Shown here: one piece after another, positions 3,909 through 44,418 of the stretch
Numbering within the stretch: the first letter of the stretch is position 1
How the letters are laid out: the number at the start of each line of letters is the position of its first letter
Made by a program: the position numbers and the translations under genes
Notes under the pieces: model-generated
What the model was told of the DNA's origin: nothing
The model's database searches: none
Seen by the model: the letters and a program-made list of their open reading frames with translations, nothing else
Source of the DNA: a virus
IMG/VR virus record: IMGVR_UViG_3300020185_000014
Location: 1 to 64,000 of that record
DNA length: 64,000 nt
Reading direction: 5' to 3' (one strand)

Positions 3909-3937
3909 ATCTTACTTTTATTTTCGCTCAATGTCAA
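3909..3937 (-). promoter_or_regulatory. Sigma70-type early promoter for gene 45 operon
   Basis: Perfect -35 TTGACA (3937-3932) and -10 TAAGAT (3914-3909) are separated by exactly 17 bases, 27 bases upstream of the gp45 ATG. The -35 overlaps the last codons of the upstream zinc-motif gene. This would let the clamp and clamp loader be expressed early, independently of the upstream cassette. Confidence 0.75.
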
Positions 3938-4344
3938 GAGAAAAACTGGTCTAACAAATTTTTGTTTTGCTTTGGATGCGGTTTCTTTTTGGTTGGAGTT
4001 TTGACTATTGATAGTTCTCCAAAATCTAAAAGGTTTGTTTGCTCTTCGACGGGACGGTTTCGTTTGAGATATGCTCGCTTTGCAGATGCAATACTTCCAT
4101 TATATTGTTTATAACATGTAGCGCATAACTCTCGAAGATCGTCAGCATGCGATGTATATCCCCGTTTTACTTTAGATTTTTTATAGAAGGCTGTTATGGA
4201 AAAACGTTTACCGCATCCCCAGAGGCACAATTTTGTGTGCATTGTGTTATACCCAAACAAGGTTCTCGCATACAAACCACCTTGAGTAGTCGTCCGTGTG
4301 TGGACTCCTGGCGTTTCTTCTAACGATGTCACTTTATTAGACAT
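3934..4344 (-). CDS. Small zinc-motif protein with clamp-binding-like C-terminus
   Basis: Not assignable to a named family. The 136-aa product has two cysteine pairs, CLWGC near residue 40 and CATC near residue 75, spaced like a zinc ribbon or HNH-like knuckle and separated by a basic stretch (KKSKVKRGYTSHADD). The C-terminal third is Lys/Pro-rich and ends KNLLDQFFS, which resembles sliding-clamp binding peptides (hydrophobic pair plus terminal aromatics). A second similar stretch, TNLLDFG, lies about 30 residues earlier. The gene shares a TAATG overlap with the UDP-galactopyranose mutase gene and sits just before gp45. A clamp-recruited DNA-binding factor is plausible. Confidence 0.6.
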   Translation of the reverse strand: MSNKVTSLEETPGVHTRTTTQGGLYARTLFGYNTMHTKLCLWGCGKRFSITAFYKKSKVKRGYTSHADDLRELCATCYKQYNGSIASAKRAYLKRNRPVEEQTNLLDFGELSIVKTPTKKKPHPKQNKNLLDQFFS

Positions 4345-5360
4345 TACAATATTTCCTTTAAATATTTTTTTGATCCCGCTAATGATTGGTTAATTACTTG
4401 GTGCATATCCAGATACTGATAAGTCCCGCAACGACCGATAAAGGTCATGCGCTTGTTATCAATTTCTGTATATTTGTTATAAATCGCAGAGCTTAATCCG
4501 TCAGTAGTTTTGACAGGATAGTACCGCTCTTTCTGATTTGTTTTGTAATCACAGGGCCACTCATAGGTCAACGTTGTGAATCCTGGATTGTTTCCGTGAT
4601 TAGGAAAATTCTTCCACTCGGTGACCCTGGTCGGACCCTCCCATGTGGTGAAATTGGTAGTCGCCGTTTTAAATACATTCTTCTGGGGCAGCGTTACCGT
4701 TTGAAACTTGATTGATCTATACGGTAACTCGCCAAATATAAAATGATAATACTCGTCGATAGGCATGCTGTTAAAAGTATGCGTATATTCTTTTTCCATA
4801 TCATAAGAAAACGGTGTTTTAAGGCGAACAGAGATGTTCTCGTGATCTAAGATATTATCAATCAAAACGGTATAACCATCCTTCGGCATCTTCTGTATAG
4901 TGTCGTCGGGAAAATAATATTCATTGTAATCATCACGAACAGGAACGCGCTCTAATATTTTCGGATTTAGTTCTTCCAGAGAAATCCCCCACATTTTCTT
5001 TGTATACGGTTTAAAGAATATGTCGGCAACGTTCTCTTCTCCCACGAGCATCGATGTTTCTTTGTTTACTGGCAGAGTATAATATTCCCCATCGGTATGC
5101 AACGCTAAGACTTTATGCTTGTAATCGACCCACTCGGTATACTGAGACAACCACTTAAACACTCTTTCGTTACTGGTGTGAAAAATATGCGGTCCATATT
5201 TATGAACCCTGATATTATCTTCATTAAGATAATCAAACGCATTACCGGCGGTATGGTCCCGCGAATCAATCACGTCAACTCTTGCCCCTGCTTCAGCAAG
5301 TTCTCGAGCATAGACTGCGCCAGCAAACCCAGCGCCGACAACCAGATACTTCCTATCCAT
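4344..5360 (-). CDS. glf: UDP-galactopyranose mutase (FAD enzyme)
   Basis: Interconverts UDP-galactopyranose and UDP-galactofuranose. The 338-aa product has the FAD-binding GAGFAGAVYARELAE at the N-terminus, then the UGM hallmarks: AGNAFDY, YGPHIFHTSN, KMWG with ELNPKILERVPVR, ERYYPV and, near the end, GRCGTYQYLDMHQVI, the FAD/active-site motif. It is slightly shorter than bacterial UGMs (about 370-390 aa) but all blocks are present, so it is likely active. The start codon overlaps the end of the glycosyltransferase gene by 8 bases, and the stop overlaps the next gene, so the three are coupled. Its product would be a sugar donor for the adjacent glycosyltransferase. Confidence 0.9.
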   Translation of the reverse strand: MDRKYLVVGAGFAGAVYARELAEAGARVDVIDSRDHTAGNAFDYLNEDNIRVHKYGPHIFHTSNERVFKWLSQYTEWVDYKHKVLALHTDGEYYTLPVNKETSMLVGEENVADIFFKPYTKKMWGISLEELNPKILERVPVRDDYNEYYFPDDTIQKMPKDGYTVLIDNILDHENISVRLKTPFSYDMEKEYTHTFNSMPIDEYYHFIFGELPYRSIKFQTVTLPQKNVFKTATTNFTTWEGPTRVTEWKNFPNHGNNPGFTTLTYEWPCDYKTNQKERYYPVKTTDGLSSAIYNKYTEIDNKRMTFIGRCGTYQYLDMHQVINQSLAGSKKYLKEIL

Positions 5361-6381
5361 TCAAATAGTCCTCAACTTGTTTGATTGTTATTTGTTTATT
5401 CATAGGTTGAGATTCATAATACGCTATTTTTTGCTCGAAAGCAAGTTTTTCTAACTGACCTTCCGAAAGTTGTTCAATTTTCTTACAAGTCAAACCAATA
5501 TAAGGTTCGCCGAATATTGATGCTTCTTTATCATCGCAGATTAAAATTGACTCACAATCAGCAACTTGTTGCGGTCTCGCACGCCACCAACCAGAACCAG
5601 CATGCCAGTATCCTGCCATTAGAATACCCCATTGCTCATTGAAGGTCGTTACCATATCTTCTTCCGATAATCGAACTTGTTTTTTATTTTTAGATCCATA
5701 TTGTTTGATCTCCCACTTTGCTTCTGCGGTGATTCGGTTAAACCACTTCTCGGTCTCGGACTGAATCAATCCAGCAAAGTTAAAGATCTTTGCTTTATCG
5801 TCATCAAACAATGTTGTTCTAGGTTTGCGGTGTAGCGTGAACGGCGGCGGAAACCAAGAATGGATTTTATCGTTATCCCAATCAGAAAATAACATTTTAA
5901 AATCGCCACCCAAATGCGCAGGTAATGTGATAGGTCGATCCATGTTTGCTATCATGGTAAATGCTTTTTTGAAATCCGCTTTCCACTCTGGGCGAAGTTC
6001 TTTTTCAGCAACAACATTATTGACGTAATAATCGTTCGTGACCGAATCGACGACTTTGTCAATATTGTTTTTCCATGTATTAATGTTCTTGGGAGATTGC
6101 CAATCTTCAATAGCAAAAAGAACATCGTCGCGTTGAGCGATAGTCCAAAGCGCGCTGTAGATATGCGTGTTAAATGGAGATATGTGCATTAGAAACACAA
6201 CCACCTTATCATAAACAGATAAGTCCTCGCCGATCCTAACAGGTCTCTGTTCTACTTCATGCCCCATAGACTCAAGGCATTCGACTAGACTGAAATGGGC
6301 AGTACATAAACCGATCTGAGAAGACTTATGAAAATTCTTCGTACAAGCGGCGCGTGTGAACCCTGTGATTAATACTTTCAT
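5353..6381 (-). CDS. GT-B-like glycosyltransferase (possible DNA glycosyltransferase)
   Basis: The 342-aa product is not a close match to any family I can name. Its layout resembles T4 DNA beta-glucosyltransferase (351 aa): a Rossmann-like start (MKVLITGF), a DKVVVFLMHISPFN strand-loop, a central FNFAGLIQSE strand, and a C-terminal donor-binding part with GILMAGYW, then RPQQVADCESILICDD, resembling the 'W-E-x-M-A-x-D-A-V-x-L-I-D' stretch of BGT. Trp/Arg-rich segments (WHAGSGWWRAR) are distinctive. Expression probably starts at the promoter just upstream, and UGM follows with an 8-base overlap. Together with UGM and GalE this suggests transfer of galactose or galactofuranose. The acceptor could be modified DNA, a protein or a surface polymer. 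Confidence 0.6.
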   Translation of the reverse strand: MKVLITGFTRAACTKNFHKSSQIGLCTAHFSLVECLESMGHEVEQRPVRIGEDLSVYDKVVVFLMHISPFNTHIYSALWTIAQRDDVLFAIEDWQSPKNINTWKNNIDKVVDSVTNDYYVNNVVAEKELRPEWKADFKKAFTMIANMDRPITLPAHLGGDFKMLFSDWDNDKIHSWFPPPFTLHRKPRTTLFDDDKAKIFNFAGLIQSETEKWFNRITAEAKWEIKQYGSKNKKQVRLSEEDMVTTFNEQWGILMAGYWHAGSGWWRARPQQVADCESILICDDKEASIFGEPYIGLTCKKIEQLSEGQLEKLAFEQKIAYYESQPMNKQITIKQVEDYLNG

Positions 6382-6408
6382 CCGTTACCTCAATTTAATT
6401 GAAAGACT

Positions 6409-6437
6409 ATTATGACATATTATTACAAAAAAGTAAA
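6409..6437 (-). promoter_or_regulatory. Sigma70-type promoter for glycosyltransferase-UGM operon
   Basis: -35 TTTACT (6437-6432) and -10 CATAAT (6414-6409) are separated by 17 bases, 27 bases upstream of the glycosyltransferase ATG, in one of the few real gaps of this region (6382-6457). Confidence 0.6.
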
Positions 6438-6457
6438 GCGGTAAGTCGTTGATTTTA

Positions 6458-7348
6458 TTATTGTTTTTGTTCTAGGATGTATTGATCCAAACACATGTCC
6501 TGGATTGTGCGCTTTAGAGTAATTCTCTCTGATAAATTAGTAACCTTACAAGAGATCGCGTCTCCTGCACGTCTAGGCGCAACCTCATAGGGCAATAGGA
6601 TGCCTGTTGCATCATAAAATGCGTTATAGACATCCCATACGGTGAAACCCTTATTAGACCCCAATTCTTCATATTCAGTATTCAAAGGTCCATTCGCGCA
6701 TGCAGACTCAATAGCATCAGCAAGATCCAAGACGTGTACATAATCTCTAACGCATGTTCCGTCTTCCGTCGGATAATCATCACCAAATATTTGTAACGTT
6801 TCCCTTCTCTTGCAAGCAACTTCTGCCATTACACGGATGAGGTGTGACGCTGGACCGAGTTGTTTGAGGTTCCCGTCTGATCCGGAAACGTTGAAGAATC
6901 TAAAGATCGTCCACTCTTTACCAAATTTATTTTTCCTAATTGCCCACTCAGCACAGGTTTTAGATAAAGCATAAGGCGAAGCGTTTTCTAAGGAAGAAGA
7001 ACTGCCCGCAAAAATAATATGTTTCGCATTAATGTGCTCGAGCACTTCCTGAGTGCCTCTGATATTGGCATCAAAATATTCAAACGGGACTTCAATCGAA
7101 GGGGCGACTAAGTTCCTTCCCGCAAGATGAACACAAACGTCAAACTCAGTTTCCATTAAATCGCGATTCGTTATTTTGCAGATATCTTCTTTATAGAAGA
7201 TGTTACAGTAATTCTCGATTTCGTTATACTCATCATAAACGCCATAAGAATCTAAACCAGTTACTTTATATCCACGAGTTCTTAATATTTTAACAACATG
7301 TGATCCGATGTAACCTGCCGCACCCGTGACTAAAACTTTTTTGCTCAT
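6458..7348 (-). CDS. galE: UDP-glucose 4-epimerase-type SDR enzyme
   Basis: Extended short-chain dehydrogenase that would interconvert UDP-glucose and UDP-galactose. The 296-aa product shows VTGAAGYIGSH (NAD binding), the catalytic YxxxK as YALSK preceded by AGSSSS, and the GalE hallmark DGTCVRDYVHVLDLADA, then RRAGD near the C-terminus. It is about 40 residues shorter than E. coli GalE (338 aa), so the substrate could be another UDP-sugar. I start at the ATG at 7348, which overlaps the upstream oxygenase stop as TGATG and places the NAD motif at residue 8. A longer reading to 7450 has a basic, unrelated extension and is rejected. Confidence 0.88.
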   Translation of the reverse strand: MSKKVLVTGAAGYIGSHVVKILRTRGYKVTGLDSYGVYDEYNEIENYCNIFYKEDICKITNRDLMETEFDVCVHLAGRNLVAPSIEVPFEYFDANIRGTQEVLEHINAKHIIFAGSSSSLENASPYALSKTCAEWAIRKNKFGKEWTIFRFFNVSGSDGNLKQLGPASHLIRVMAEVACKRRETLQIFGDDYPTEDGTCVRDYVHVLDLADAIESACANGPLNTEYEELGSNKGFTVWDVYNAFYDATGILLPYEVAPRRAGDAISCKVTNLSERITLKRTIQDMCLDQYILEQKQ

Positions 7349-8661
7349 CAGAAAAATGCCTCCAAGGTTGATGTTTGCGGGTGATACTCTTCGAGTAAGT
7401 CTTCGCCGCCGTTGGTTCTCAAGTAGTCGTACCATTCTTCGCTCTGCCACATCTTCGCAGTGACGCCATTAAACTTAGGATCAGACGAAGCGAGTCTCCT
7501 CGAAGTTACAAAATTGTATCGTTGTTGCTCATATTCCCAAGACCCCAAGTCGATCATGTTTTCTCTAAAATAACACACCAAAGAGATACGCTCCATATCC
7601 TCAACGGTTTTTCCTGCTGGGGGAATGATTTCTGTGTTACCATGGATGCCTTCGTGATTATTGATTAATAACACATCTCCTGGTCGAACATTAATCGCGA
7701 TGCGGTATTCCGGAAGAACTAGATATCCCCCCTCCCATTCTTTTTCTTTAGACACGACTGTTAAGTTTGAGAAACCTTCGGTCAAATCACCAGCGTCTCG
7801 ATGCGCTGCAGTTCTGAAGTTCTTATTAACAGTTATTGTAGTGAATGGCGTATTCTTACCGGCAACTCTAAATCTAGGGTCAATCTTATCAGCATAGGTT
7901 TCTTGGGCGGCATGCCGTGTCGGCATTAATTGAGAAAATTGCTCTGCGAGAGTCATCATAAAAGGAAAACATTTTTTATACAAATCAGGATTCTTTTCAG
8001 TGTATGACGTTGCTCGACCATATGGTATTCTTGGATACCGATCAAAGAAACCGGCGATGCCGGAATTAACAGCATTGGCATATGTCGTGTCAGAAATATA
8101 TTTCGTTTTTACATGGAGCGCATCTGCAGATGCCTCATCCGAGGGCATGGACTTCCACATCTCTACTTTATGATTGAAGAAATCCTCATAAGTGAAACCT
8201 TCGTCTGCAATTTTACTTCGCAACCAAACCATGCCTCTGGTAGATTCTACTGGATTTCTTTTATGCCTAAGTTCTATTTCTGTAATGGGATCATCGCCGA
8301 ATATGTTAATCTGATCATTAATAACACAATCAAGAATATCCCATTGTACTGCAGTAACCCAATCGCGATTGCCGAGTTTTCCTTGTTTCGGACCTGCCGC
8401 CATGCCTCTATTTTGAGTAGGTTGGGCAGCACTGACCAGACCCTCGTATGCCCAGAGTTGTTCTCGCGCCGAGAATACGTTTTTCCTGAACTTAAAGATA
8501 CATTCGCTTTCTGATAACTCGGAGTTATCTCCATCGAGCGCACCCACTTTATAAAAATCTACGTCATCTTCAATAAGAGTATCATAATGACTTTCGTCGA
8601 GATACTTACCAAGTAAGTTTGTACAATCGTGTTTGTGCGTGGCTACAATAACCTGCGTCAT
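7348..8661 (-). CDS. TET/JBP-type 2-oxoglutarate/Fe(II) dioxygenase
   Basis: TET/JBP enzymes hydroxylate the 5-methyl group of thymine or 5-methylcytosine in DNA. The 437-aa product carries the family's double-stranded beta-helix: NKNFRTAAHRDAGD gives iron ligands H287 and D289, followed by GGYLVLPEYRIAINVRPGDVL, then the distal H340 in GIHGN and R358 (ERISLVCYF) for 2-oxoglutarate. An N-terminal NRGMAAGP block, typical of the family, is at about residues 84-91. AGGAG lies 9 bases before the ATG. The gene follows gp46 by 12 bases and is coupled to galE. A protein or free-nucleotide substrate cannot be excluded, but the fold details favour DNA. Confidence 0.85.
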   Translation of the reverse strand: MTQVIVATHKHDCTNLLGKYLDESHYDTLIEDDVDFYKVGALDGDNSELSESECIFKFRKNVFSAREQLWAYEGLVSAAQPTQNRGMAAGPKQGKLGNRDWVTAVQWDILDCVINDQINIFGDDPITEIELRHKRNPVESTRGMVWLRSKIADEGFTYEDFFNHKVEMWKSMPSDEASADALHVKTKYISDTTYANAVNSGIAGFFDRYPRIPYGRATSYTEKNPDLYKKCFPFMMTLAEQFSQLMPTRHAAQETYADKIDPRFRVAGKNTPFTTITVNKNFRTAAHRDAGDLTEGFSNLTVVSKEKEWEGGYLVLPEYRIAINVRPGDVLLINNHEGIHGNTEIIPPAGKTVEDMERISLVCYFRENMIDLGSWEYEQQRYNFVTSRRLASSDPKFNGVTAKMWQSEEWYDYLRTNGGEDLLEEYHPQTSTLEAFF

Positions 8662-8673
8662 TATGTATGCTCC

Positions 8674-10380
8674 TCAAGCGATTTTGCTAAAATTCTTTTG
8701 CTTCGTGAATTGGATTGTGTTTTCAAAGTGTTCTCCCATCACGTCACCTTTGTGAGAGATGACATAGACATTTGTATCATTACCTAAAGTATCTAATATT
8801 TTTATCAAATTGTCAACCCCATCAGCGTCTAAAGATGAGTCAAAGGTTTCGTCTAAGATTAGGAGGTTTGTGGCAACGCTGTTTTTCATCTTAGCGATCA
8901 TGCGCCAAGTGAATAACAACGAAAGGTCGATTCGCTGCTTCTCGCCTTCTGAAAACGAATCATAACTAAACGCATCGCGGTGTCGAGAACGAATAGTTTC
9001 TTTGAATGCTTCGTCAAGGTCGAAGTGGACGTAGAAGTCCAGAACCTGTAGATATTGGTTGGTGAGTTTATTAATGACGGGAAGATACTGCTTAATGATT
9101 TTAGTTTTAATCCCAGTGTCTTTAAGTAACTCAGTTATGACATTATTGTATTCTCGTTGCTCTGCGAGCGCGAGGCGTTCTTCCGTGAGAGAGCATTTCG
9201 CACTTTCTTCACGTAGTAAAGTATCTCGTGCTTCTTGCACGCTATGTACACCTGTTTGGAGTTCGGATAACTCACTCTGTAAAGAATCAATTCTTCTTTG
9301 GCTCCAGACAATCTTTTCTTTGGTTGTTCTGATTTCATTAAGTTTTTCAGTTTCGATATCAATCGCATCTTGTAGGGTGTCCTTTGCGTTATCTAACTCA
9401 CAGATTTTATGTTGGGCGGCAAGTTTCGCTTCGCCGAGTTCGTCACACTTGTGCTTGGCGTTCTGTACCTTATCCAATCGGAAGGAGGTTTCGATGGTCT
9501 GTTGACAGGTTGGACAGTCGTCGTTATCTTCATAGAATACTATTTCTTTTTTAGTTGCTTTTTGTTTTGACTCGAATTGAAAAACGTATTTTCCTATCTC
9601 TTGCATTTTAACATCGAGGGCGCGTTGTTTAGTCTGCAGATCAAGTAGAATATCGTCTTCCCATTCGGTCAACTGGGCGTTAAGGCGGGCCAACTCTGAC
9701 TTATGCTCGTCAAGTTCAGTTTCCTTTTCTTTACGAGCGGTGTCAGAGATTTTAGTTAATTCGCGGATGTGTTTTTTCTGCGAATCAATTTTAGTTTCCG
9801 TCAACTCTACTTGATGTAAATTATCTCTAATCTTATCTTTTAGGTTGGCGGTCTTTTCTTTAAGTAACGAGTTCATCTTTGAGAACACATTGATATCTAG
9901 TAGATCTTCAATGACGTCTCGCCGGTGCTGGGCGGGTAGTTGCATGAAAGGAACAAAACTGCTACTGCCCAGCACTACGATCTGATGAAATGATTTGTGA
10001 TTCAGTTTTAAAATATTTTGTTCGAGGATCTTCTGATACTCTTTGGCATGAGAAGATTGATTGACCATATTCCCGTCAGTATAGATTTCAAAGAGGTTCG
10101 GTTTCAACCCCCTGACGATTCTGAAATGCTGATCGTATGCATCAAACTCAACCTCAACAACACAATCTTTATCGTTGATCGTGTTAATCAATTGCGGTTT
10201 ATTGATATTTCTATGCGCCTTACCGAACAATGCAAAAGAAAGCGCATCAAGTAAAGTAGATTTACCAGCGCCGTTTTGTCCAACAATCAAATTAGTTTTG
10301 AAGTCTGTTAGGTTTATCTTGGTGAAACAATCACCGGTGGATAGAAAATTCTTATATTTTAAAGTCTTAAATGTAATCAC
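8674..10380 (-). CDS. 46: Recombination nuclease subunit gp46 (Rad50/SbcC-like ATPase)
   Basis: With gp47 this forms the Mre11-Rad50-type complex that resects DNA ends for recombination-dependent replication. The 568-aa product has Walker A GQNGAGKS (residues 34-41), a long coiled coil interrupted by the zinc hook CPTC (289-292), the ABC signature FSEGEKQR (476-483) and Walker B LLILDE (506-511), followed by an ISHK switch. It closely follows T4 gp46 throughout, including the QIVVLGSSSFVPFM region. It starts at a GTG (10380) that overlaps the gp47 stop, so the two are translationally coupled. Confidence 0.96.
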   Translation of the reverse strand: MITFKTLKYKNFLSTGDCFTKINLTDFKTNLIVGQNGAGKSTLLDALSFALFGKAHRNINKPQLINTINDKDCVVEVEFDAYDQHFRIVRGLKPNLFEIYTDGNMVNQSSHAKEYQKILEQNILKLNHKSFHQIVVLGSSSFVPFMQLPAQHRRDVIEDLLDINVFSKMNSLLKEKTANLKDKIRDNLHQVELTETKIDSQKKHIRELTKISDTARKEKETELDEHKSELARLNAQLTEWEDDILLDLQTKQRALDVKMQEIGKYVFQFESKQKATKKEIVFYEDNDDCPTCQQTIETSFRLDKVQNAKHKCDELGEAKLAAQHKICELDNAKDTLQDAIDIETEKLNEIRTTKEKIVWSQRRIDSLQSELSELQTGVHSVQEARDTLLREESAKCSLTEERLALAEQREYNNVITELLKDTGIKTKIIKQYLPVINKLTNQYLQVLDFYVHFDLDEAFKETIRSRHRDAFSYDSFSEGEKQRIDLSLLFTWRMIAKMKNSVATNLLILDETFDSSLDADGVDNLIKILDTLGNDTNVYVISHKGDVMGEHFENTIQFTKQKNFSKIA

Positions 10381-11447
10381 GCTATTTCCATTGTCTGTGC
10401 TTCGACCATCAGGTCACGAACTAACGATTTCAATTTGTTTTTATCTAGATCAGTTTCTACTGCATCTATGTAAGTATATAATAATTTGTCGGTGTTTTCA
10501 ACCGAAACTTTATCATCAGATACACTCGCCCCCAAGAACTCTGAAAAGTCTTCGGCGATCTGTAACCCATGAACTTTCCTTGCATTGATCCGATCAACAA
10601 ACTTTTCAAACTCAATGGGTTTTGATTTGTTCATAACGACGACCTTAACAAATTTCTTGTCAAGATAAGCAAGGTTCTGCGTCGCGAGTTTCTTGAAATT
10701 CTCAGAAGTATCGTCGTAATATATTTTTTCAAATACCGTTTGTGGATTATGTATCGGCGTCAACACCCGAGATTCTGTATCGAGAACGTGAAAATATTTT
10801 CTGTCGTCACAATCATTCCAGAAAAATTCCATCTGCGAACCGAGATAATGAATATTATCTTGTGATGATTTCGTATGGAAATGCCCAGAGAGTACCATCT
10901 CAAAACGATCGAACAAAGATTTATCCATCCCTTCCGCGCAAAGAACGCCGGACTGCATTTCAAACCCTTGCAGTTCTAGGTGCGCGCCGACAATATCCGC
11001 CTTGCATTTTTTAATAAAATCAACAGTTTTAGTTTCGTTTTCCGAGTTGATCCATGGGATGAGGGCAATTTTCATACCGTCATATTCAACCACAGAAGGT
11101 TTTTCGATAATGCGAACTTCAGACATGTAATGACCGAGAAGTTCTTTAAGGGCATTTAACTGATTGGTGTTCTTATAGTAAACGTCATGATTGCCTGGTA
11201 TAATATCCATATGAATATTACGATCCCTAAGAACGTCAAGGAATATCCGACGATTGTGATTAAGTGCTTTAAAATTGATCGATGTACGACTTTCATAATA
11301 ATCACCCAGATGTAAAACTTTTTTAATATTATGTTCTTCCAAATAAGGAAAGAAAACATCACGATAAAACTGCTCTTGGTAATCCATAAAGATTTCAGAA
11401 GAGTTTCTAACACCACAGTGAGTGTCGTTCAAGATTGCGATTTTCAT
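10377..11447 (-). CDS. 47: Recombination nuclease subunit gp47 (Mre11/SbcD-like)
   Basis: Calcineurin-like metallophosphoesterase partner of gp46. In the 356-aa product the five metal-binding blocks appear in order: LNDTHCG (D8, H10), LGDYYESR, GNHDVYY, an isolated histidine segment (GAHLELQG) and GHFHTKS. Length equals the T4 protein (339 aa) within a few residues. The ATG lies 2 bases after the gp55 stop, so 55-47-46 are one unit. Confidence 0.95.
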   Translation of the reverse strand: MKIAILNDTHCGVRNSSEIFMDYQEQFYRDVFFPYLEEHNIKKVLHLGDYYESRTSINFKALNHNRRIFLDVLRDRNIHMDIIPGNHDVYYKNTNQLNALKELLGHYMSEVRIIEKPSVVEYDGMKIALIPWINSENETKTVDFIKKCKADIVGAHLELQGFEMQSGVLCAEGMDKSLFDRFEMVLSGHFHTKSSQDNIHYLGSQMEFFWNDCDDRKYFHVLDTESRVLTPIHNPQTVFEKIYYDDTSENFKKLATQNLAYLDKKFVKVVVMNKSKPIEFEKFVDRINARKVHGLQIAEDFSEFLGASVSDDKVSVENTDKLLYTYIDAVETDLDKNKLKSLVRDLMVEAQTMEIA

Positions 11448-11448
11448 A

Positions 11449-12051
11449 TTATTCCATAAATTTAGTTAAGTCTGAATCAACTGTAATAGTTCTCTTTTTC
11501 CTTTTAGTTTGTTTGCCGTATTCCGAAACTTTGCTGTCGTTATCTTTAACCAAGTCAATGCGCAATCTAAGTTCATCAACAAACGCTTGAGTCTTTTGAT
11601 GAGCATAAGAATTGTCGCCTTCTTCTTCGACAAGAAACTCTAGACCAGACTCAAACAAATATTTGAGTTTGATATCTTGTTGCTTCTTTTCCTTTTCGAT
11701 CCTGCGAAGAAAGGCATACCAAGATATTTGAGTGAAGTATGCGAATGCATTTGGTTTGCCTGTTCTGGTTGCAGTTTCTAGATTATAGTTTTCAATTGCT
11801 TTCAAACAATTCTCAACGGCATCCATAACCATTTCTTCTCGATAAGTGTACCGAACAAAATTAGACTTATGCGATAAACCTTCAGCAATCTTTAAGAAGC
11901 ATTGAGCGACATAGTTGGGAACCTTGGGCGCTACATTACCTGCGGCGACCTGTTCGCGCTTATGCGATACGTATGCAACAACTGCAGCAGAAAACTCTGC
12001 ATTGTTCACATAATGTGGTTTTTCTTTGGGTTTTAGTTTCTTCTCAGACAT
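11449..12051 (-). CDS. 55: Late-transcription sigma factor gp55
   Basis: Directs host RNA polymerase to late promoters (TATAAATA), of which several occur in this window. The 200-aa product has the region 2-like segment: FVRYTYREEMVMDAVENCLKAI, then FAYFTQISWYAFLRRIEKEKK, the diagnostic block of T4 gp55 (185 aa). The C-terminus ends in DSDLTKFME, a hydrophobic/acidic tail consistent with the gp45-binding end of gp55. The upstream gap carries a candidate promoter. Confidence 0.93.
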   Translation of the reverse strand: MSEKKLKPKEKPHYVNNAEFSAAVVAYVSHKREQVAAGNVAPKVPNYVAQCFLKIAEGLSHKSNFVRYTYREEMVMDAVENCLKAIENYNLETATRTGKPNAFAYFTQISWYAFLRRIEKEKKQQDIKLKYLFESGLEFLVEEEGDNSYAHQKTQAFVDELRLRIDLVKDNDSKVSEYGKQTKRKKRTITVDSDLTKFME

Positions 12052-37079: not shown

Positions 37080-37334
37080 TTAGGCGATGCCCTGTCCGCC
37101 TTGCCGCGTCCAAACCCCGCCCATATTTTTATAAAGACTGTTATCGCCTTTATTAAAAGCAAGCAACGACGTTGAAGGGAAATCATCGACGGAGTCGTAC
37201 GCGAGAACAAAGTTATTCGAGACTAGGGATGCTTTGATTGCCCGAATAACATCAATCGCTTCTTCCTCGGTCATCCCCGCAATCTTTTTCTGCAGTTCGG
37301 ATAGTGTGTGCGTTATGTCTATCGGCGTCGTCAT
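37080..37334 (-). CDS. Small module protein of the propeller array
   Basis: The 84-aa product is not a named family. It has an N-terminal helical hairpin (DITHTLSELQKKIAGMT) followed by the short strand unit ending NSLYKNMGGVWTRQ. That 'LY-x-x-x-G-x-x-W' unit also occurs in the N-terminal part of the neighbouring propeller proteins. Start and stop overlap neighbours closely. Confidence 0.6.
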   Translation of the reverse strand: MTTPIDITHTLSELQKKIAGMTEEEAIDVIRAIKASLVSNNFVLAYDSVDDFPSTSLLAFNKGDNSLYKNMGGVWTRQGGQGIA

Positions 37335-38518
37335 TAAACTTGATGCCCAGCGTGAGTCGACTTTGATTGTGATAAATCGCCGACATCAAGAGAAGAAACG
37401 AACGGGTTTGCAAACGGAAACTTATCGACCAGATTAGATACTACCGGTTCTGAACCGCCCATCGTGTATCCAAATGTGAAAGAAGAAACCCCTGCCGCGT
37501 TCATTCTTGCCGTTCCGAGTGTTCCGATATTCGCAGATGAAATCGCATCACTCGCGAACGGAAACTTATATATTTCGTTTCTGATTGATACCGGAGAATT
37601 GATTTGTCCACCAGAAGTGAACCCCGCAACTTCAGAAGAAATTCCTGCTGCATAATTTCTGCTAACGGAGAGGTTTCCGACATGTACAGCGTCGTTGTCT
37701 GTTTGGAACGAAAACCTCTCTACTCGGTTTTGATATCCGTATGAGGGAGTATAACCGCCGGAAGAGTAACCGTGAGTCAAAGAAGAATGCCCTGCTCGCC
37801 CGTATTGGTTCGTGTATGTTGTGAGGTCCGCCGAATGAATACCAGAAGTTTCGGAAGAAAATCTAAATTTCTGAATTTCTCCTGTACCAACGCCAACCGG
37901 AAGATTACTTCTACTTGTTAGATAACCATAATGTTCAGAAGAACTCGCCGCTTGTTGAGTAATTGTTTTCGACAGATCGCCAACGATCGCGCCATCGGCA
38001 AAGGCAGCGAATGAGAACTTCTCGATAGATAATCTTCCTGGAGAACCGCCAGCAACGAAACCGTCAGACTGACTAGAATTTCCAGCAACAAAATTTCTCG
38101 CAACAGCAAGGTTGCCGATCGCCGTGGCAGTTCCTTCAGATGCAAATGGATATCGATCAATAGTCGTTAATCGATATCCTGATGCCCCGCCCGAAGTAAA
38201 TGCAAAATCATCACCTGGAAATGCTTTTCGATCTGAGTCTAAATTTATTAACAATTCCCAATCTGAACCGGTGTTGAGATATAATCCATTATTCATACCG
38301 AACGATTGGATAATTGCGGTCATACCCTCAAGGTTTGAGTCTAGGGGTAGTGCCGCGATGCTGTCATAATAATTTACAAACTCTCTTTCTTTCCACGGAG
38401 AAATTGAATTGACTGCATCGATCAACTGCAGGAGTTCTAGTGCTTCCGCAGAATCGTTTACAAAAAGATCAAACGCCGAATCTAGTTGAGTTAATATTAT
38501 ATTTTTATTAATTGCCAT
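37334..38518 (-). CDS. Six-repeat kelch-like propeller protein A
   Basis: The 394-aa product has an N-terminal helical part and strand unit (NGLYLNTGSDWELLINLD), then six repeats of about 45-50 residues. Each has a Gly-Tyr/Phe-x-x-Gly-Gly turn, an I/V-E-x-F-x-F strand and a GDLSxxRxxAAGxSS segment (turns at FTSGG, FVAGG, YLTSR, YSSGG, FTSGG, YTMGG). It ends HAGHQV. A six-bladed beta-propeller is predicted. It lies in the late tail region and is likely a receptor- or glycan-binding tail protein. Confidence 0.7.
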   Translation of the reverse strand: MAINKNIILTQLDSAFDLFVNDSAEALELLQLIDAVNSISPWKEREFVNYYDSIAALPLDSNLEGMTAIIQSFGMNNGLYLNTGSDWELLINLDSDRKAFPGDDFAFTSGGASGYRLTTIDRYPFASEGTATAIGNLAVARNFVAGNSSQSDGFVAGGSPGRLSIEKFSFAAFADGAIVGDLSKTITQQAASSSEHYGYLTSRSNLPVGVGTGEIQKFRFSSETSGIHSADLTTYTNQYGRAGHSSLTHGYSSGGYTPSYGYQNRVERFSFQTDNDAVHVGNLSVSRNYAAGISSEVAGFTSGGQINSPVSIRNEIYKFPFASDAISSANIGTLGTARMNAAGVSSFTFGYTMGGSEPVVSNLVDKFPFANPFVSSLDVGDLSQSKSTHAGHQV

Positions 38519-38528
38519 GAAGCATCCT

Positions 38529-38819
38529 TTATGGGATTTCAGGTTCGGGTTCGGGTTCGGGTGCTATAAAATCAGTTAACGTAACTGGTTTCCAATTTTT
38601 ACCATTCGAAACGAAGATAGTTTGTGTATCTGTATCATAGTACATATGACTGAAATTTTGTAACGATGCTACCGGTAAAGTAGCGCCCGTTCCGACAACA
38701 GTATATCCATCGTTTTTGAGCAAAAGTGCTTGCAGTTTGGACAACGCGGTCGTTTCTGTTGCGGTCGATCCTACTATGGTATTTGCATTATTAACGAGAT
38801 TTGATATATTGATAAACAT
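38529..38819 (-). CDS. Small module protein with Glu-Pro tail
   Basis: The 96-aa product repeats the N-terminal helical unit (FINISNLVNNANTIVG) and strand unit (IFVSNGKNWKPV) of the adjacent propeller proteins without the propeller. It ends in a Glu-Pro repeat (EPEPEPEIP) encoded by a GGTTCG hexanucleotide repeat. It overlaps the next gene by one base. Confidence 0.6.
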   Translation of the reverse strand: MFINISNLVNNANTIVGSTATETTALSKLQALLLKNDGYTVVGTGATLPVASLQNFSHMYYDTDTQTIFVSNGKNWKPVTLTDFIAPEPEPEPEIP

Positions 38820-40009
38820 TATACTTGATGCCCTACTGTGTTATGCCGCGACCCGACTAAATCTCCTGCAGCGGTTATTGTTACCGGCGAAGCGCTGAAT
38901 GGAAATGATTCTATTGTACTTATAGAAGGCGAGAATCCTCCAGAAATATATCCGTCGGTCCTAGAGGATTGACCAGAAACTAGTCGTTTCGCAGTCGACA
39001 AATCTCCGACATCGATAGAAGAATATGGTGAGTTGAACGAAAACCTTTCGATGTTCTGCAAAGAAAAGGCGTCAAACCCACCAGAAACATAACCATGAGT
39101 CTCGGAGGAATTTCCTGCCGCTTTTGAGTTCGCCACTGTTAAATTAGTAATATAGGCAGAAGATGTGAATGCGACGAAACTGAACCTGTCCACTGAGGTT
39201 AAGTTGATGCTGGTCGTTTCGTTAATACCGCCAGCGACATATCCGAAATCAAAATCCGAAATTCCGATTGCCTCTGACTTTCCTATCAGCGACCCCGAAA
39301 CATATAAATTTCCGTGAAGACTGGATTGTGTTTCGTTAGCAAAGGGGAATTTATATATTCTCCTCATTGCTTGTGTTAATTGCGGTTGCGAAGTAACATC
39401 GCCCCCTGCCGCGAATCCTATCGCATGTGCATTGGTTGAAAGACCTGCCGATTTCGAACGTTCGAATTCTAGATCACCGACCAACAGAGAATTGGTAGTG
39501 TTAACAAATTCGAATTTCTCAATTTCGCTAATTACTGCGCCGGTGCTAACCTTACCGCCGGTGGAATATCCTCTTAATTCTGACGACTGTCCCGCTAATT
39601 CTATTTTTCCTGCAGTCAAATCACCCAAAGTTAAAGCGTTGGTAAAACTAGAAAACGGAAACCGCTCAATCGAAGAACTGAATCCTGGGTTCAAACCGCC
39701 CGATACAAATCCGTAATCGTCTCCTTGAAAACGTCTACTCTCATCTAGTAATGCACCGAGCACGATGGGTTTCCACTTGTTTCTATGAGAAACATAGAAC
39801 GCATCCGAATCGCGATTGAATGCAATGATGCCTTCGTTCGATACTGTTGCGCTGTCGAAATCGTGTATATGTCTATATTGGACTGCGTGTGAATATGCTT
39901 TTGAAAATTTGTCGAGACTGTTTAATCTCACCTGCTCTGTCGAGTTCGCCGTTCCGCTAGCGACTCTGGCGTTTATCGTATCAAGTAAATCTTTAATATT
40001 AATTGTCAT
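38819..40009 (-). CDS. Six-repeat kelch-like propeller protein B
   Basis: The 396-aa product is a paralogue of the 394-aa protein. N-terminal helical region NIKDLLDTINARVASG, strand unit AFYVSHRNKWKPI, then six Gly-Gly blades (FVSGG, YSTGG, FAAGG, YVAGG, YVSGG, YISGG), each followed by an IE-x-F-x-F strand. It ends with GHQV. The N-terminal region carries the array-wide module. Confidence 0.7.
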   Translation of the reverse strand: MTINIKDLLDTINARVASGTANSTEQVRLNSLDKFSKAYSHAVQYRHIHDFDSATVSNEGIIAFNRDSDAFYVSHRNKWKPIVLGALLDESRRFQGDDYGFVSGGLNPGFSSSIERFPFSSFTNALTLGDLTAGKIELAGQSSELRGYSTGGKVSTGAVISEIEKFEFVNTTNSLLVGDLEFERSKSAGLSTNAHAIGFAAGGDVTSQPQLTQAMRRIYKFPFANETQSSLHGNLYVSGSLIGKSEAIGISDFDFGYVAGGINETTSINLTSVDRFSFVAFTSSAYITNLTVANSKAAGNSSETHGYVSGGFDAFSLQNIERFSFNSPYSSIDVGDLSTAKRLVSGQSSRTDGYISGGFSPSISTIESFPFSASPVTITAAGDLVGSRHNTVGHQV

Positions 40010-40016
40010 AACACGC

Positions 40017-41171
40017 TCAGTACTGCTGGGAAGAACCCTTGTTCTTTTCTATTGATAAATCACCTACATCGATCGAAGTTCCGTCAGTGTAGAAAGAGAA
40101 TTTCTGTATGACTTTCGAACGACTCGCCTCGCCGCCGCCGGCAATAAACCCTCTTTCTGTTGACGACGTTCCCCCAGAGAAATTTTCTGTTTGTATTGTT
40201 AAATCACCAACATCAGAAGCATTAACGTCCGAAGAGAACGGAAACTTATCAACAATATTGTTATTTATTAGGTCAGTATAAACGTTGTATCCATAACCTT
40301 GCATTGAAGATAACCCAGCGCCGTTATTTGAAGCACTAGAAAGGTTTGCTGAGTTAACGGCATTTGCTACAGATGCGGTGAATGTTACTTTATCGATTAC
40401 GTTATTACTCGCCCCGTCACCGCCGGTGAAATATGCAGAGGTGTTAGAAGAACTTCCCGCAGAACCTGTTTTCATGGCAGTTAAATCGCCAACATCGAGC
40501 GCATCAACCTCGCTGATAAAAGAAAACCTATCAAGAACGTCACTATTAGCAGGAGTGGAACCACCTGCAGTGTAACCAAACCCATACGACGCAGAGGAGG
40601 CACCGCCCGCAGAAGAACGCGCGGTTGTTAAATTAGCAACTGATTCAAGCACCGCAGGAGAAGCAAATGAAAACTTTTCAATGGTCGATAATAATCCAGC
40701 ATCCAAACCGCCAGAACTATATCCATCTGTCTTTGACGATTGTCCTGCTGAACTCATTCGTCCGGCGAATAATTGCGCGCCATGACTGATCGAATTACCG
40801 TCAGTGACAAAGGAAAATCGATCAATGTTATTGGTTAACGACCCGACATTACCGCCGGAATAGAACCCCGCGATTTCTCCTTGGAATATATCTTGTTGGT
40901 TCCCGAGTCTACGATAACCATCCGAATCTCTCATGTAGAGCGTTTTACTATGAACGTCAAAAAATATTCTCGCTCTTCCAGATTCTATATCGGGGTCATC
41001 TCCGGCGCTTAATGGGAATGTTGATGAATGGTTATAACTTGATAGTGATGATATGCTAGCATCTGAAACAAGTTCGGACAAATAACGTAACGACTGTGTT
41101 GATGTATCGGAATCACTTTCGATGCACTGCTGTTGTAAATTAACAATAAACCCTGTAATGTTAGTAATCAT
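40017..41171 (-). CDS. Six-repeat kelch-like propeller protein C
   Basis: The 384-aa paralogue has six blades with turns FYSGG, YSSGG, YTAGG, YFTGG, a degenerate YNVYT and FIAGG, each with a D/E-x-F-x-F strand and a VGDLT/S segment. N-terminal unit TLYMRDSDGYRRL. The ending SSQQY is the least like the others. It is followed by a small module protein in the next gene. Confidence 0.68.
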   Translation of the reverse strand: MITNITGFIVNLQQQCIESDSDTSTQSLRYLSELVSDASISSLSSYNHSSTFPLSAGDDPDIESGRARIFFDVHSKTLYMRDSDGYRRLGNQQDIFQGEIAGFYSGGNVGSLTNNIDRFSFVTDGNSISHGAQLFAGRMSSAGQSSKTDGYSSGGLDAGLLSTIEKFSFASPAVLESVANLTTARSSAGGASSASYGFGYTAGGSTPANSDVLDRFSFISEVDALDVGDLTAMKTGSAGSSSNTSAYFTGGDGASNNVIDKVTFTASVANAVNSANLSSASNNGAGLSSMQGYGYNVYTDLINNNIVDKFPFSSDVNASDVGDLTIQTENFSGGTSSTERGFIAGGGEASRSKVIQKFSFYTDGTSIDVGDLSIEKNKGSSQQY

Positions 41172-41172
41172 G

Positions 41173-41535
41173 TCAACTCTCTAGTATTGTCAATTCGACC
41201 CACTTAAACCCTTTCGACACATAAAACATCAGATCTGCCTCAGAATAAACGATGCATCCGATGTTCTCGAAAGTTGGTGTTGGGAACGTTGATTGAGATT
41301 GATGAGTGACTGCAGTTTCAAGTGCGGATAGTCTTCGCTGCCTGAGTTTGTGAAGTTGCATAATATCATCCGCTGGACCCGATCCAACATTTTGGTATGT
41401 TTCGAGAATTGCAGTCAGTATTAATAACGTTTCTCGGTGATGTTCAAACACAGCATTGTCGCTCGCCGCTTGCAACGATAGACGCTGGTACGCGGCGAGA
41501 GCAACTATTTGTAGTTTTTCGAGATTCAGGATCAT
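41173..41535 (-). CDS. Small module protein of the propeller array
   Basis: The 120-aa product is helical in its first two thirds (LEKLQIVALAAYQRLSLQAA, LHKLRQRRLSALETAV) and ends in the array strand unit MFYVSKGFKWVEL. No other motif. It overlaps the next propeller gene's stop by one base. Confidence 0.6.
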   Translation of the reverse strand: MILNLEKLQIVALAAYQRLSLQAASDNAVFEHHRETLLILTAILETYQNVGSGPADDIMQLHKLRQRRLSALETAVTHQSQSTFPTPTFENIGCIVYSEADLMFYVSKGFKWVELTILES

Positions 41536-42698
41536 TAATTTTGATGCCCTGTTGAAGCATATTTTGCGGCAGTTAGTGATCCCACGTCGCTCGCGTCACC
41601 ATCCGACGCGAAGGGAAAACTCTCAATATTGTCCGTTGATGTTGTTGTAAAACCGCCAGCAACCCATCCACTCACGTTAGAAGATTGTCCCGCAGATTCT
41701 CTCTTCGCGGACGCGAGATTTCCAACGGTAGTAAATGTTGAAGAACCGGAAAATGGAAACTTTTCGATGCTCGATATATTGGATCCAGATAACCCGCCGC
41801 TAACGTATCCGTGGGTTGTAGAAGATTGTCCAGTAGTGAAGGATCTTGATGCGTTCAGGTCACCCACGCCGGTCGTAGCAAAAGAGAACCAGAACGGAAA
41901 TTTATCAACGGCAGTTGTGTTGCTCGCGCCGATTCTTCCTCCGCTTCGATACCCATCATATTCTGAAGTTTGTCCTGCGGTCGCCGCAACGTTTTCGGTT
42001 AACGCGCCGACTTCTGTAGCATCAGTTCCTGCAGAAAAAGAAAATTTGTCAATGGCATCAGTAAACCCTGCCCCTATATTTCCGCCCGCAACATACCCAT
42101 GCCCCTTACCCATGTCCGTCTGACCGGAAACTTCAGATCTACTCGAAACGAGGTTAGAAACATCGGTAGCAACGAACGGCGAGTTGTAAGAAAACTTTTC
42201 TATTTTATCCGTCGGTCCTGGTTGCCCGCCGGCAACAAACCCGAACCCATTAACTCGATCAGACATTCCAGCACTTTTTGAACGCGTGGAAGATAAATTA
42301 ACAACGGATGCCGAATTTGATCCTGAGGGAAAATCGAATGATACAACCAACCTCGATTGAGACGCATCTCCGGATGAATATCCTTTCAGCGTGCCTTGAA
42401 ACGGCGTGATTGCTGGAAATTGATTGACGAAATTAGATTCATCTAGGGGAATACTGTTCCAATCGAAATTATGAGAAACTTTCCATGTATCCAGCGTTTC
42501 GTCATATATCATATTGCCGAAAGTTTTTTCTTCTGGGAGTGGTATACTATAGTTATGGTATGAAAAGAAATTCTGTAGATTCCTAATCAATTCAGTTCCT
42601 CGGGTTAAACGTCCGAGTTCTACGTTTGTATCCGCGCTGTCGGCGAGATCGATCTTTTCTTGTAGTTTAAAGATTATGTTTTCAATATTAATTGCCAT
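41535..42698 (-). CDS. Six-repeat kelch-like propeller protein D
   Basis: The 387-aa paralogue starts at the ATG at 42698 (GGAAGG 10 bases upstream; a TTG 18 bases earlier was rejected). Blades: YSSGD (degenerate), FVAGG, YVAGG, YRSGG, YVSGG, WVAGG. Ends with GHQN. The N-terminal unit DTWKVSHNFDWNSIPLDE replaces the LY unit of its siblings. Some shared blade sequences with B and C suggest recombination among them. Confidence 0.7.
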   Translation of the reverse strand: MAINIENIIFKLQEKIDLADSADTNVELGRLTRGTELIRNLQNFFSYHNYSIPLPEEKTFGNMIYDETLDTWKVSHNFDWNSIPLDESNFVNQFPAITPFQGTLKGYSSGDASQSRLVVSFDFPSGSNSASVVNLSSTRSKSAGMSDRVNGFGFVAGGQPGPTDKIEKFSYNSPFVATDVSNLVSSRSEVSGQTDMGKGHGYVAGGNIGAGFTDAIDKFSFSAGTDATEVGALTENVAATAGQTSEYDGYRSGGRIGASNTTAVDKFPFWFSFATTGVGDLNASRSFTTGQSSTTHGYVSGGLSGSNISSIEKFPFSGSSTFTTVGNLASAKRESAGQSSNVSGWVAGGFTTTSTDNIESFPFASDGDASDVGSLTAAKYASTGHQN

Positions 42699-42700
42699 GG

Positions 42701-43273
42701 TTATACAACCTTCCAATTGTTTAATTCTCTATTTCTTAACATCAACTTGCTGGCATGTGTATCGAAAAGAATATTAACACTACTGTCTAACGCGGTCAAT
42801 ACCTCTGCAGAATCTACAAGTCTCGTGTGAATCAATCCCGAAGACTGCCGCTCGCACATATTGAATATATCGGTTAAGTCAAACGGATGTGAATTGCTAT
42901 CTAGTGCGTATATGTTATTATTAGTGGTCTGTAGTGCCGTGGTTAAATCGTATAGATCATCGCTTGGATATGTCCAAGCAGAATCATCATTTAAATTCAT
43001 CAACAGATTCCACGAAGATCCGTTGCTGAGATATATCTCATTATCCAAACCTGTATTCGTACCGCGAAAACTGATCGCTGATCCTTTGTTTGAGGAATCT
43101 GCAGGAAACGGAAATCCAGATCCGGTTCGCGTATATTCTGAACTTAAATAATAATTCTTGGTTCCATAAAAGTTCGCCGCACGTTCCAATACTAGAATAT
43201 CAGTGGTCGGCGTCAACTCATCAATATCAGATATTGCTATCGTTAAAACGCTTTTAAGATTATCGATATTCAT
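42701..43273 (-). CDS. Double-module protein of the propeller array
   Basis: The 190-aa product holds two copies of the small strand/helix unit. N-terminal MNIDNLKSVLTIAISD and EIYLSNGSSWNLLMNLN give the first; a second helical unit and KLMLRNRELNNWKVV end the protein. It has no propeller, is one base after the next propeller gene's end, and looks like a fusion of two small module proteins. Confidence 0.6.
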   Translation of the reverse strand: MNIDNLKSVLTIAISDIDELTPTTDILVLERAANFYGTKNYYLSSEYTRTGSGFPFPADSSNKGSAISFRGTNTGLDNEIYLSNGSSWNLLMNLNDDSAWTYPSDDLYDLTTALQTTNNNIYALDSNSHPFDLTDIFNMCERQSSGLIHTRLVDSAEVLTALDSSVNILFDTHASKLMLRNRELNNWKVV

Positions 43274-44418
43274 CAGTGTTGCGCTCCGGCAGATCCATGT
43301 TTCGATGCAGTTAGATTAGCAACTGAAATACCAGTTAGTCCGGACTGGAATGAATACTTCTCAGTAGATGCAGTTAACCCGCCAGATGGCGATGTATTAC
43401 CTCCGGCAACATAACCATGTTGTTTCGAAGACGCTCCAGTACCAGAAGATAGTAACCTATTAATAGACAAGTTTCCAATATCTGATATCTCTACCGGTGA
43501 ATTTGAAAACGCATACTTGTAAACGTTGTCAGATCCTAACGGAGAAAGTCCGCCAGAAACATATCCATGAGTTAATGATGAGTTGCCTGCTGCTTGAGTG
43601 ACTGGCGATGGCAACCCTCCAACAGTAGTCGCGTTCGCGTTTGACGCAAATGAAAATTGTTCTAAACGTGTTCCGTAGTTGACATATCCTTTGCTGCCCG
43701 TAGTGTCTGAAGAACCTGCGCCGAATTCGCAACCAGAGGTCAATCCACCCCACGCAGCGCCTGAAGTAGAAGAGGCGAAATTAAATTTCTCTACCCTAGT
43801 TACAGCGTTCTGCCCGCCCATTGTATACCCTGCGGCATTGATTACATCAGATGCCCCTGCGACTCTGCCCTTGGGTTCGGTTAGACTCCCTGCGGTGGTT
43901 GCGCTATTCGATGACGTGAATGAGAATTTTTGAATAGCATCGGTGCCGGCACCGCCGCTGACATATCCGTCTTCGTTTGTAGTGTCTGAATGTCCAGCAA
44001 GATGATTCGCTGCCGTGGATAAACTTCCTACATTGACGCCGTTGTTATCGCTAGAGAATGAATATTTCTCAACAACATCATTGGCGATTGGACCGCCGCC
44101 CATGGCGAAACCATATTTCGTACCCTGGAACGCAGGTGCGGCCACGTGTTTTAGGAGCGGTTTCCAATACCTTTTGTCAGAAAAAAATAAATTCTTTTCA
44201 TCTTTAACGTATGCAATCTGTTCTGGGTCAGTTACGTCGTCGAGTAAATTCGGCAACGCTCCTGCCGAATCATACATATGAATCGGATTGCCGTCGCCGC
44301 GAATAGCAATTTTAAGGAGATAAATCAAATCTTGCGAATGCGAACTGGCAGTCGATTCGTTAATTTGCTTTTGCGATATCTTTAATATATTTTTAATATT
44401 AAATGGAGTATTCGGCAT
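43273..44418 (-). CDS. Six-repeat kelch-like propeller protein E
   Basis: The 381-aa paralogue has the N-terminal helical region, the NLFFSDKRYWKPLL unit, and six blades: FAMGG, YVSGG, YTMGG, YVNYG (degenerate), YVSGG, YVAGG. Ends AGAQH. The blade consensus is the same as in the other four, but the amino-acid details differ, so it is the oldest or most exchanged copy. Confidence 0.68.
   Translation of the reverse strand: MPNTPFNIKNILKISQKQINESTASSHSQDLIYLLKIAIRGDGNPIHMYDSAGALPNLLDDVTDPEQIAYVKDEKNLFFSDKRYWKPLLKHVAAPAFQGTKYGFAMGGGPIANDVVEKYSFSSDNNGVNVGSLSTAANHLAGHSDTTNEDGYVSGGAGTDAIQKFSFTSSNSATTAGSLTEPKGRVAGASDVINAAGYTMGGQNAVTRVEKFNFASSTSGAAWGGLTSGCEFGAGSSDTTGSKGYVNYGTRLEQFSFASNANATTVGGLPSPVTQAAGNSSLTHGYVSGGLSPLGSDNVYKYAFSNSPVEISDIGNLSINRLLSSGTGASSKQHGYVAGGNTSPSGGLTASTEKYSFQSGLTGISVANLTASKHGSAGAQH

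Follow-up and report, generated by a model that had tools for sequence, protein, structure and literature searches.

Organization of the locus

The window analysed here, 64,000 nucleotides in length, is part of IMG/VR virus record IMGVR_UViG_3300020185_000014, a 116 kb fragment of a T4-like phage. Four minus-strand open reading frames form a cassette between genes 46 and 45. The following features are relevant.

7348..8661, minus strand: TET/JBP Fe(II)/2-oxoglutarate DNA-base oxygenase (TET), 437 aa, PF12851
6458..7348, minus strand: GalE-like UDP-glucose 4-epimerase, 296 aa, PF01370
6382..6457, minus strand: GalE/GT gap, 76 nt, with a weak promoter-like match in its sequence
5353..6381, minus strand: GT-B glycosyltransferase (GT), 342 aa, phrog_14998, by predicted fold
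4344..5360, minus strand: UDP-galactopyranose mutase (UGM), 338 aa, PF03275
3205-3882: gp45, flank of the cassette
8674-10380: gp46/SbcC, flank of the cassette
10377-11447: gp47, flank of the cassette
11449-12051: gp55, flank of the cassette

A previous sequence-only reading had proposed these four enzymes at these coordinates, placed between replication and recombination genes. The positions were reproduced, gp46 and gp45 were recovered in the flanks, and Pfam profiles together with key residues confirmed the oxygenase, the epimerase and the mutase. The same reading had described overlapping start and stop codons within the gene pairs, which holds for TET/GalE (1 nt) and GT/UGM (8 nt) but not for GalE and GT, separated here by 76 nt. 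Two relatives, L035 and L122, have a 4-nt overlap at each of the three junctions. The 76-nt gap contains a weak promoter-like match (6437-6409) and may mark the start of a separate GT-UGM transcript; the match is not evidence of function, as a scan for promoters and terminators yielded about as many matches as expected by chance.

The oxygenase and the sugar enzymes

The oxygenase matches PF12851 with an E-value of 8.7e-26 and a score of 90.5 bits, where the curated cut-off is 34.9. Its HxD...H iron triad (H287/D289/H340) and the 2OG-binding R358 are invariant in an alignment of 31 relatives and align to the corresponding residues of TET2, and the top structural matches of its predicted fold (pLDDT 84) are human TET2, CcTet, NgTet1 and CMD1. 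Profile, residues and fold thus confirm membership of the TET/JBP family, from which oxidation of a 5-methylpyrimidine in DNA is inferred.

The epimerase matches PF01370 (E 4.9e-33) and carries the extended SDR motifs GxxGYIGSH and YxxxK. Although its best PDB relatives are GalE/GAL10 (E 8e-40), the protein is short, and specificity for UDP-Glc/UDP-Gal is only proposed. The mutase matches PF03275 (E 3.2e-50) and PDB UGMs (E 8e-65) and retains all six of the Klebsiella pneumoniae UGM catalytic residues that were checked (W160, R174, Y185, R280, Y349 and D351). Its identity as a UGM is confirmed by profile and catalytic residues, while conversion of UDP-Galp to UDP-Galf is inferred from these sequence features.

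The glycosyltransferase resembles T4 DNA glucosyltransferases in predicted fold only

No Pfam match and no PDB sequence match was found for the product of 5353-6381, PDB profile searches being empty or returning noise, and the phrog_14998 family to which it belongs has no assigned function. Comparison by hhalign with T4 alpha-GT and beta-GT gave a probability below 2%, and no match was obtained with RB69 ORF003c; homology to these proteins is thus not recognisable at the sequence level. Neither is it a TAGT, as the PF20691 profile has no match anywhere in the record. The proposal that it is a glycosyltransferase is nevertheless upheld by its predicted structure. An AF2 model built from an alignment containing only rows from the retrieved loci (pLDDT 90.3, pTM 0.89) was compared by Foldseek with 350,542 PDB chains. 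The best match was T4 beta-GT (E 1.2e-7; TM 0.65), followed by alpha-GT (E 3.4e-7), and the top nine matches were all structures of these two enzymes. The family alignment suggests D93 as the counterpart of beta-GT D100, and given the beta-GT-like fold the enzyme is probably inverting. GT-B folds are common. The link to known DNA glycosyltransferases consists of the modelled fold alone, and DNA as the substrate is inferred; we therefore do not class the GT as a member of the T4-type family, while the model suggests that it may work like one.

Conservation and exchange of partners across phages

Using the GT alone as query, 14 metagenomic contigs were retrieved. Wherever the contig contained enough DNA to judge, TET lies upstream (12 of 12) and UGM downstream (12 of 12), and an epimerase is found between TET and GT in 11 of 12. 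As the same arrangement recurs in independent contigs, it is not a product of chance. Phage C48C1 likewise carries consecutive TET-GT-UGM genes. In more distant GT-UGM pairs, TET is replaced by another base-modifying enzyme: a dCMP hydroxymethylase of the gp42-like kind in the Aeromonas phages Aes012 and phage 25 and in Erwinia phage FBB1, or a C5-cytosine methyltransferase near GT(-UGM) in actinophages. Only the hydroxymethyl source accompanies the GT more constantly than UGM does. RL38J1, which has been listed among phages with glycosylated hmC, possesses a UGM but no member of this GT family, and so provides only a weak link.

The fold of the GT and the conservation of TET and UGM, together with the replacement of TET by a gp42-like enzyme or a methyltransferase beside GT-UGM, make this almost certainly an operon for DNA-base glycosylation. 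The earlier proposal that a pyrimidine is hydroxylated and then receives a galactose-type sugar is thus supported by families, folds, operon conservation and gene swaps. In the absence of biochemistry, we infer that a base in the phage's DNA is very probably hydroxylated by the phage itself and then given such a sugar, most likely galactofuranose, which would probably protect this DNA from bacterial nucleases.

Proposed pathway

In the proposed pathway, the oxygenase would act on phage DNA and hydroxylate a pyrimidine at its 5-methyl group; the most likely target is thymine, which would become 5-hydroxymethyluracil. GalE would convert host UDP-glucose to UDP-galactopyranose, from which UGM would form UDP-galactofuranose, and the GT-B transferase, putatively inverting, would place galactofuranose on the hydroxymethyl group of the base. 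The predicted product is 5-(galactofuranosyloxymethyl)uracil, which resembles base J, or its hmC counterpart. We consider it likely that the four genes constitute such a post-replicative hypermodification operon, with thymine as the most likely base and galactofuranose as the added sugar. A more specific version is put forward tentatively, namely a base J analogue in which thymine is oxidized in place to 5hmU and capped with galactofuranose through the phage GalE-UGM route, this cap being one of a number of modules, based on either sugars or amino acids, that can replace one another and are served by the same TET.

Thymine or cytosine as the modified base

Relatives of the oxygenase were collected from IMG/VR by an alignment-based scan, a scan with the single TET protein having given no matches. 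Among the 80 closest relatives, 53 have an amino acid:DNA transferase as neighbour and 41 a 5hmU-DNA-kinase-type P-loop kinase. These neighbours point to thymine, oxidized to 5hmU by a base-J-like route. In a phage cluster for thymidine hypermodification described in the literature, a TET-like protein occurs together with a 5-hmU DNA kinase (PMC11955845), and T4 beta-GT glucosylates 5hmU in vitro, only poorly when it is single-stranded or mispaired with G (PMC4111573).

The sequence-only reading had suggested a search for a C5-methyltransferase or a gp42-like enzyme elsewhere in the genome. None was detected in the record or in its TET-bearing relatives. No PF00145 match was obtained for the 116 kb record, for four complete TET phages or for the 0.86 Mb of sequence from relatives, and neither a PF00145 nor a gp42-like gene is present in this record, C48C1, DLP6, S-CBWM1 or 19 metagenomic TET records; Cr30, which like DLP6 carries TET but no UGM, yielded only a strong thymidylate-synthase-type match in this search. 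Since this search was negative and the TET subfamily has the neighbours described above, the likeliest base shifts from methylated cytosine to thymine.

Cytosine remains possible, though less likely. In that case, 5mC would be made by a methyltransferase that belongs to the host or has escaped detection, TET would oxidize this 5mC, and the GT would glycosylate the resulting 5hmC. The absence of PF00145 from the four complete TET phages, the record and the 0.86 Mb of relatives, and the thymine-type neighbours of the close TET subfamily, argue against this, while the record itself is a fragment lacking the DNA-polymerase side, so that a methyltransferase in the missing part is not excluded. Moreover, the distant relatives of the GT accompany C5-methyltransferases or gp42-like proteins that keep the T4 Asp marking dCMP use, and other phage TETs are reported to act on 5mC (Burke et al. 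2021). The GT relatives thus point to cytosine and the TET relatives to thymine, making the base less certain than glycosylation itself. Comparison of active-site residues D292 and R366 with TET2 and NgTet1 could not decide the base from sequence. Eighteen restriction enzymes were tested in the DLP6 paper, in passages that state no clear result.

Identity and destination of the sugar

It is also conceivable, though rather unlikely, that DNA carries another sugar, such as galactopyranose, arabinofuranose or a disaccharide, with UGM using a different UDP-sugar or feeding a second transferase. Homologs of the GT are paired with an arabinose-5-P isomerase in Rgz1 and with an unannotated counterpart of it in PSTRCR_121, the L117-L119 cassettes carry an additional GT1-type transferase, and the epimerase differs or lies downstream in L121 and L126. 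Against this stand the constancy of UGM as a partner and the preservation of its checked catalytic residues, and GalE and UGM in series fit a route from UDP-Glc via UDP-Gal to UDP-Galf. A further reading, which we regard as very improbable, is that the GT and sugar enzymes add galactofuranose to a surface glycan, be it on LPS, capsule or virion protein, TET being a mere neighbour. In its favour, the classical role of UGM is in the cell envelope, this GT is absent from the surroundings of many phage UGMs, and the genome encodes KDO8P/DAHP synthase-like and UDP-glucose dehydrogenase-like proteins and GT25/GT8-type transferases, LPS-type sugar genes that could use UDP-Galf. Against it, TET, GT and UGM are strictly linked across contigs, other base-modifying enzymes replace TET beside the same GT, TAGT, or ADDT with a P-loop kinase, takes the place of the GT beside the same TET subfamily (TET-GalE-TAGT in L050), and the folds nearest to the GT are T4 DNA glucosyltransferases.

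Phage DNA is known to carry glucose, gentiobiose, arabinose and amino-acid-derived groups, while galactofuranose is otherwise known mainly from cell envelopes and, to our knowledge, has not yet been described on DNA. If the preferred reading of galactofuranose on a DNA base is correct, this sugar would add to the known DNA decorations and come from a pathway dedicated to it, and phrog_14998 would be a previously unassigned DNA-glycosyltransferase family common to T4-like, Aeromonas, Erwinia and actinobacterial phages. TET/JBP enzymes would then supply hydroxymethyl groups in general, to sugar and amino-acid modules that can be exchanged for one another. The system could also yield new DNA-labelling enzymes and account for phage DNA that resists restriction. 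Since the GT-UGM pair is shared by Aeromonas and Erwinia phages that can be cultured, the sugar question is directly testable.

Comparison with known systems

As in the phage TET + TAGT systems (S-CBWM1, P12024L, L037, L040, L042 and L050), a TET/JBP oxygenase adjoins a glycosyltransferase; here, however, the latter is of the T4 beta-GT-like GT-B type and has its own dedicated UGM. The T4 beta- and alpha-glucosyltransferases, which act on hmC made by gp42, share the GT-B DNA glycosyltransferase fold without sequence similarity to the present GT, and T4 a-gt lies near gp47 while the cassette lies in the gp46-gp45 region. In T4, the hydroxymethyl group is made at the nucleotide level and the sugar is glucose, whereas in this phage the group would be made on DNA by TET and the sugar is probably galactofuranose.

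If thymine is the base, which is not proven, the order of TET/JBP hydroxylase and then glycosyltransferase on 5hmU matches that of kinetoplastid base J (JBP1/2 and J-glucosyltransferase), with a different GT family and sugar, and in phage rather than nuclear DNA. A parallel to the RB69-type arabinosylation module is seen in Rgz1, where the GT homolog adjoins the isomerase, gp43 and a gp42-like gene. UGM and TET are missing from the RB69-type module, its ORF003c is not recognisably homologous to the GT, and its sugar sits on 5-hydroxycytosine (PMC13390438). Thymine hypermodification combines a hydroxymethyl source with a 5hmU DNA kinase and ADDT/aGPT-PPlase, and in most relatives this source is likely to be a TET of the subfamily found here; in the present phage, whose genome has no detected ADDT, kinase or amidoligase homologs, sugar would replace the amino-acid branch.

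Cassette and conservation

The source record is a 116,069-base IMG/VR virus fragment of a T4-like phage, in which the gene order is gp55, gp47, gp46, cassette, gp45, clamp loader. All four genes that the sequence-only reading had assigned to the cassette are present on the minus strand, where that reading placed them; two further features of the window are listed with them.

7348-8661, minus strand: TET/JBP oxygenase (TET)
6458-7348, minus strand: GalE-like epimerase (GalE)
5353-6381, minus strand: GT-B glycosyltransferase (GT)
4344-5360, minus strand: UDP-galactopyranose mutase (UGM)
3934-4344, minus strand: Cys-rich 136-aa protein, overlapping the UGM stop
37334-44418, minus strand: long, repeat-rich, tandemly related proteins in the phage tail region, with kelch-like repeats by eye

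Overlaps had been claimed inside each pair; TET/GalE and GT/UGM do overlap, but GalE and GT lie 76 nt apart. Pfam and PDB sequence searches clearly identify TET, epimerase and UGM. TET retains the HxD, H and 2OG Arg residues, and all catalytic residues of Klebsiella pneumoniae UGM checked by PDB alignment are conserved in the mutase. The 3934-4344 protein matches the Lar-like and endonuclease VII families only very weakly; in phage C48C1 the corresponding position is occupied by an HNH endonuclease.

Scanning IMG/VR with GT as the only query yielded a close clade of 14 contigs (65-99% identity). Where enough DNA was available, TET lay upstream and UGM downstream of GT in 12/12 contigs each, with the epimerase between TET and GT in 11/12; some contigs are near-identical, and the independent number is perhaps seven. 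In the annotated phage collection, C48C1 (complete, 156 kb) carries TET-GT-UGM without GalE.

Glycosyltransferase fold and family

GT (342 aa) has no match in Pfam or by PDB sequence search, and its sole PHROG match is unannotated. Its AlphaFold model, built with 27 relatives (pLDDT 90.3, pTM 0.89), was compared with 350,542 PDB chains, and the top nine matches are entries of T4 beta- and alpha-glucosyltransferase, both of which glycosylate DNA bases. GT residues D93 and then P97 resemble D100 and P104 of the beta enzyme, which makes D93 a candidate for the catalytic base, short of structural proof. Because sequence profiles gave no link to the T4 DNA glucosyltransferase families, GT is a separate family, predicted from the model to work like T4 beta-glucosyltransferase.

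Exchange of partners

The partners of GT are enzymes altering pyrimidine C5, the identity of the enzyme varying. Phages Aes012 (Aeromonas) and FBB1 (Erwinia) carry UGM-GT and, at other places in their genomes, two genes of the thymidylate-synthase family; of these two, the gp42-like one keeps the T4 Asp that is linked to dCMP. In loci L129-L135 (e.g. L131:4573-8491) a C5-cytosine methyltransferase and a gp42-like gene, an unusual combination, flank the GT homolog. In actinophages (L022:5992-12326, L020, L021, L139-L159) GT stands beside a C5-methyltransferase, frequently accompanied by UGM and another GT-like paralog. A PF12851 search found no TET in the three complete ones, where the route from 5mC to a glycosylatable base is unexplained.

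Likewise, the module neighbouring this TET subfamily keeps changing. Among the closest 80 of at least 561 TET relatives, a PF18724 amino acid:DNA transferase occurs in 53, a PF18751-type kinase in 41 of these 53, TET-associated glycosyltransferase (TAGT) in 10 and GT in 2; the transferase and GT never occur together in these 80. One locus (L050) reads TET-GalE-TAGT. The case for the inferred substrate, a hydroxymethylated base within DNA, rests most strongly on this two-way swapping, of C5 enzymes beside GT and of modules beside TET.

Cr30 (L007:11027-14474) carries consecutive genes for an amino acid:DNA transferase, a TAGT-like protein and inositol-1-phosphate synthase, and the transferase and inositol synthase recur near TET in L063; this raises the question of an inositol-linked modification. 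GenBank labels the TET/JBP gene of DLP6, Cr30 and S-CBWM1 (L006, L007, L025) 'SNF2 DNA repair protein', a label that looks like a misannotation passed on between records.

Modified base and sugar

A C5-methyltransferase or gp42-like gene had been proposed as something to seek in the rest of the genome; the 116,069-base record yielded neither, nor any other thymidylate-synthase-family enzyme, TAGT, amino acid:DNA transferase or 5hmU-kinase homolog. It encodes ThyX. PF00145 methyltransferases were also not found in C48C1, DLP6, Cr30, S-CBWM1 or 19 metagenomic TET records (0.86 Mb total), and thymidylate-synthase-family enzymes were absent from the TET-bearing set searched, save a single strong match in Cr30, of thymidylate-synthase type. 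The common neighbours of TET are those of thymine hypermodification, and the window TET shares 51-67% identity with most TETs beside such genes. In phage Tonitrus a TET-like protein, aGPT-PPlase2 and a 5-hmU DNA kinase form one thymine-hypermodification cluster (PMC11955845). We lean towards thymine as the modified base; cytosine, favoured by the distant relatives of GT, is the main open alternative.

GalE and UGM acting in series would produce UDP-galactofuranose, and among the partners of GT, UGM is the one found most consistently. GalE is dispensable, being missing in C48C1 and the Aeromonas phages, presumably because hosts supply UDP-galactose. Other sugars remain possible, such as arabinose, given that an arabinose-5-P isomerase, together with a DNA polymerase and a gp42-like gene, adjoins the GT homolog of Morganella phage Rgz1, or a disaccharide, suggested for some relatives by a GT1-type glycosyltransferase added between GalE and GT (L117:3715-4680, L118, L119). 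We found no description of phage DNA carrying galactofuranose in the literature searched. Two papers are suggestive only. One speculated that a protein of an enterococcal phage, similar to a galactofuranosyltransferase, might add a further modification to glycosylated DNA (2016; PMC4999554). The other concerns Agrobacterium phage Atu_ph04, which encodes UGM together with a dCMP hydroxymethyltransferase and a GT1 protein, and whose DNA resists nine restriction enzymes (PMC6630229).

It is possible that the sugar enzymes of the cassette serve a surface glycan, LPS-type sugar genes also being present in the source genome, but this leaves the strict linkage and both exchanges unexplained. A second sugar gene set of that genome (L003:1581-9422, L002:16847-17659, L004:6328-7110), perhaps for surface or virion glycans, comprises GT25/GT8-type glycosyltransferases, a UDP-glucose dehydrogenase-like protein and a DAHP/KDO8P synthase family protein.

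Comparison with known systems

Phage TET paired with a glycosyltransferase, of the TAGT family, is reportedly known from the work of Iyer, Burke and Pyle. The window shares this pairing, but differs from TET-TAGT phages in glycosyltransferase family, in its dedicated UGM and in the probable base.
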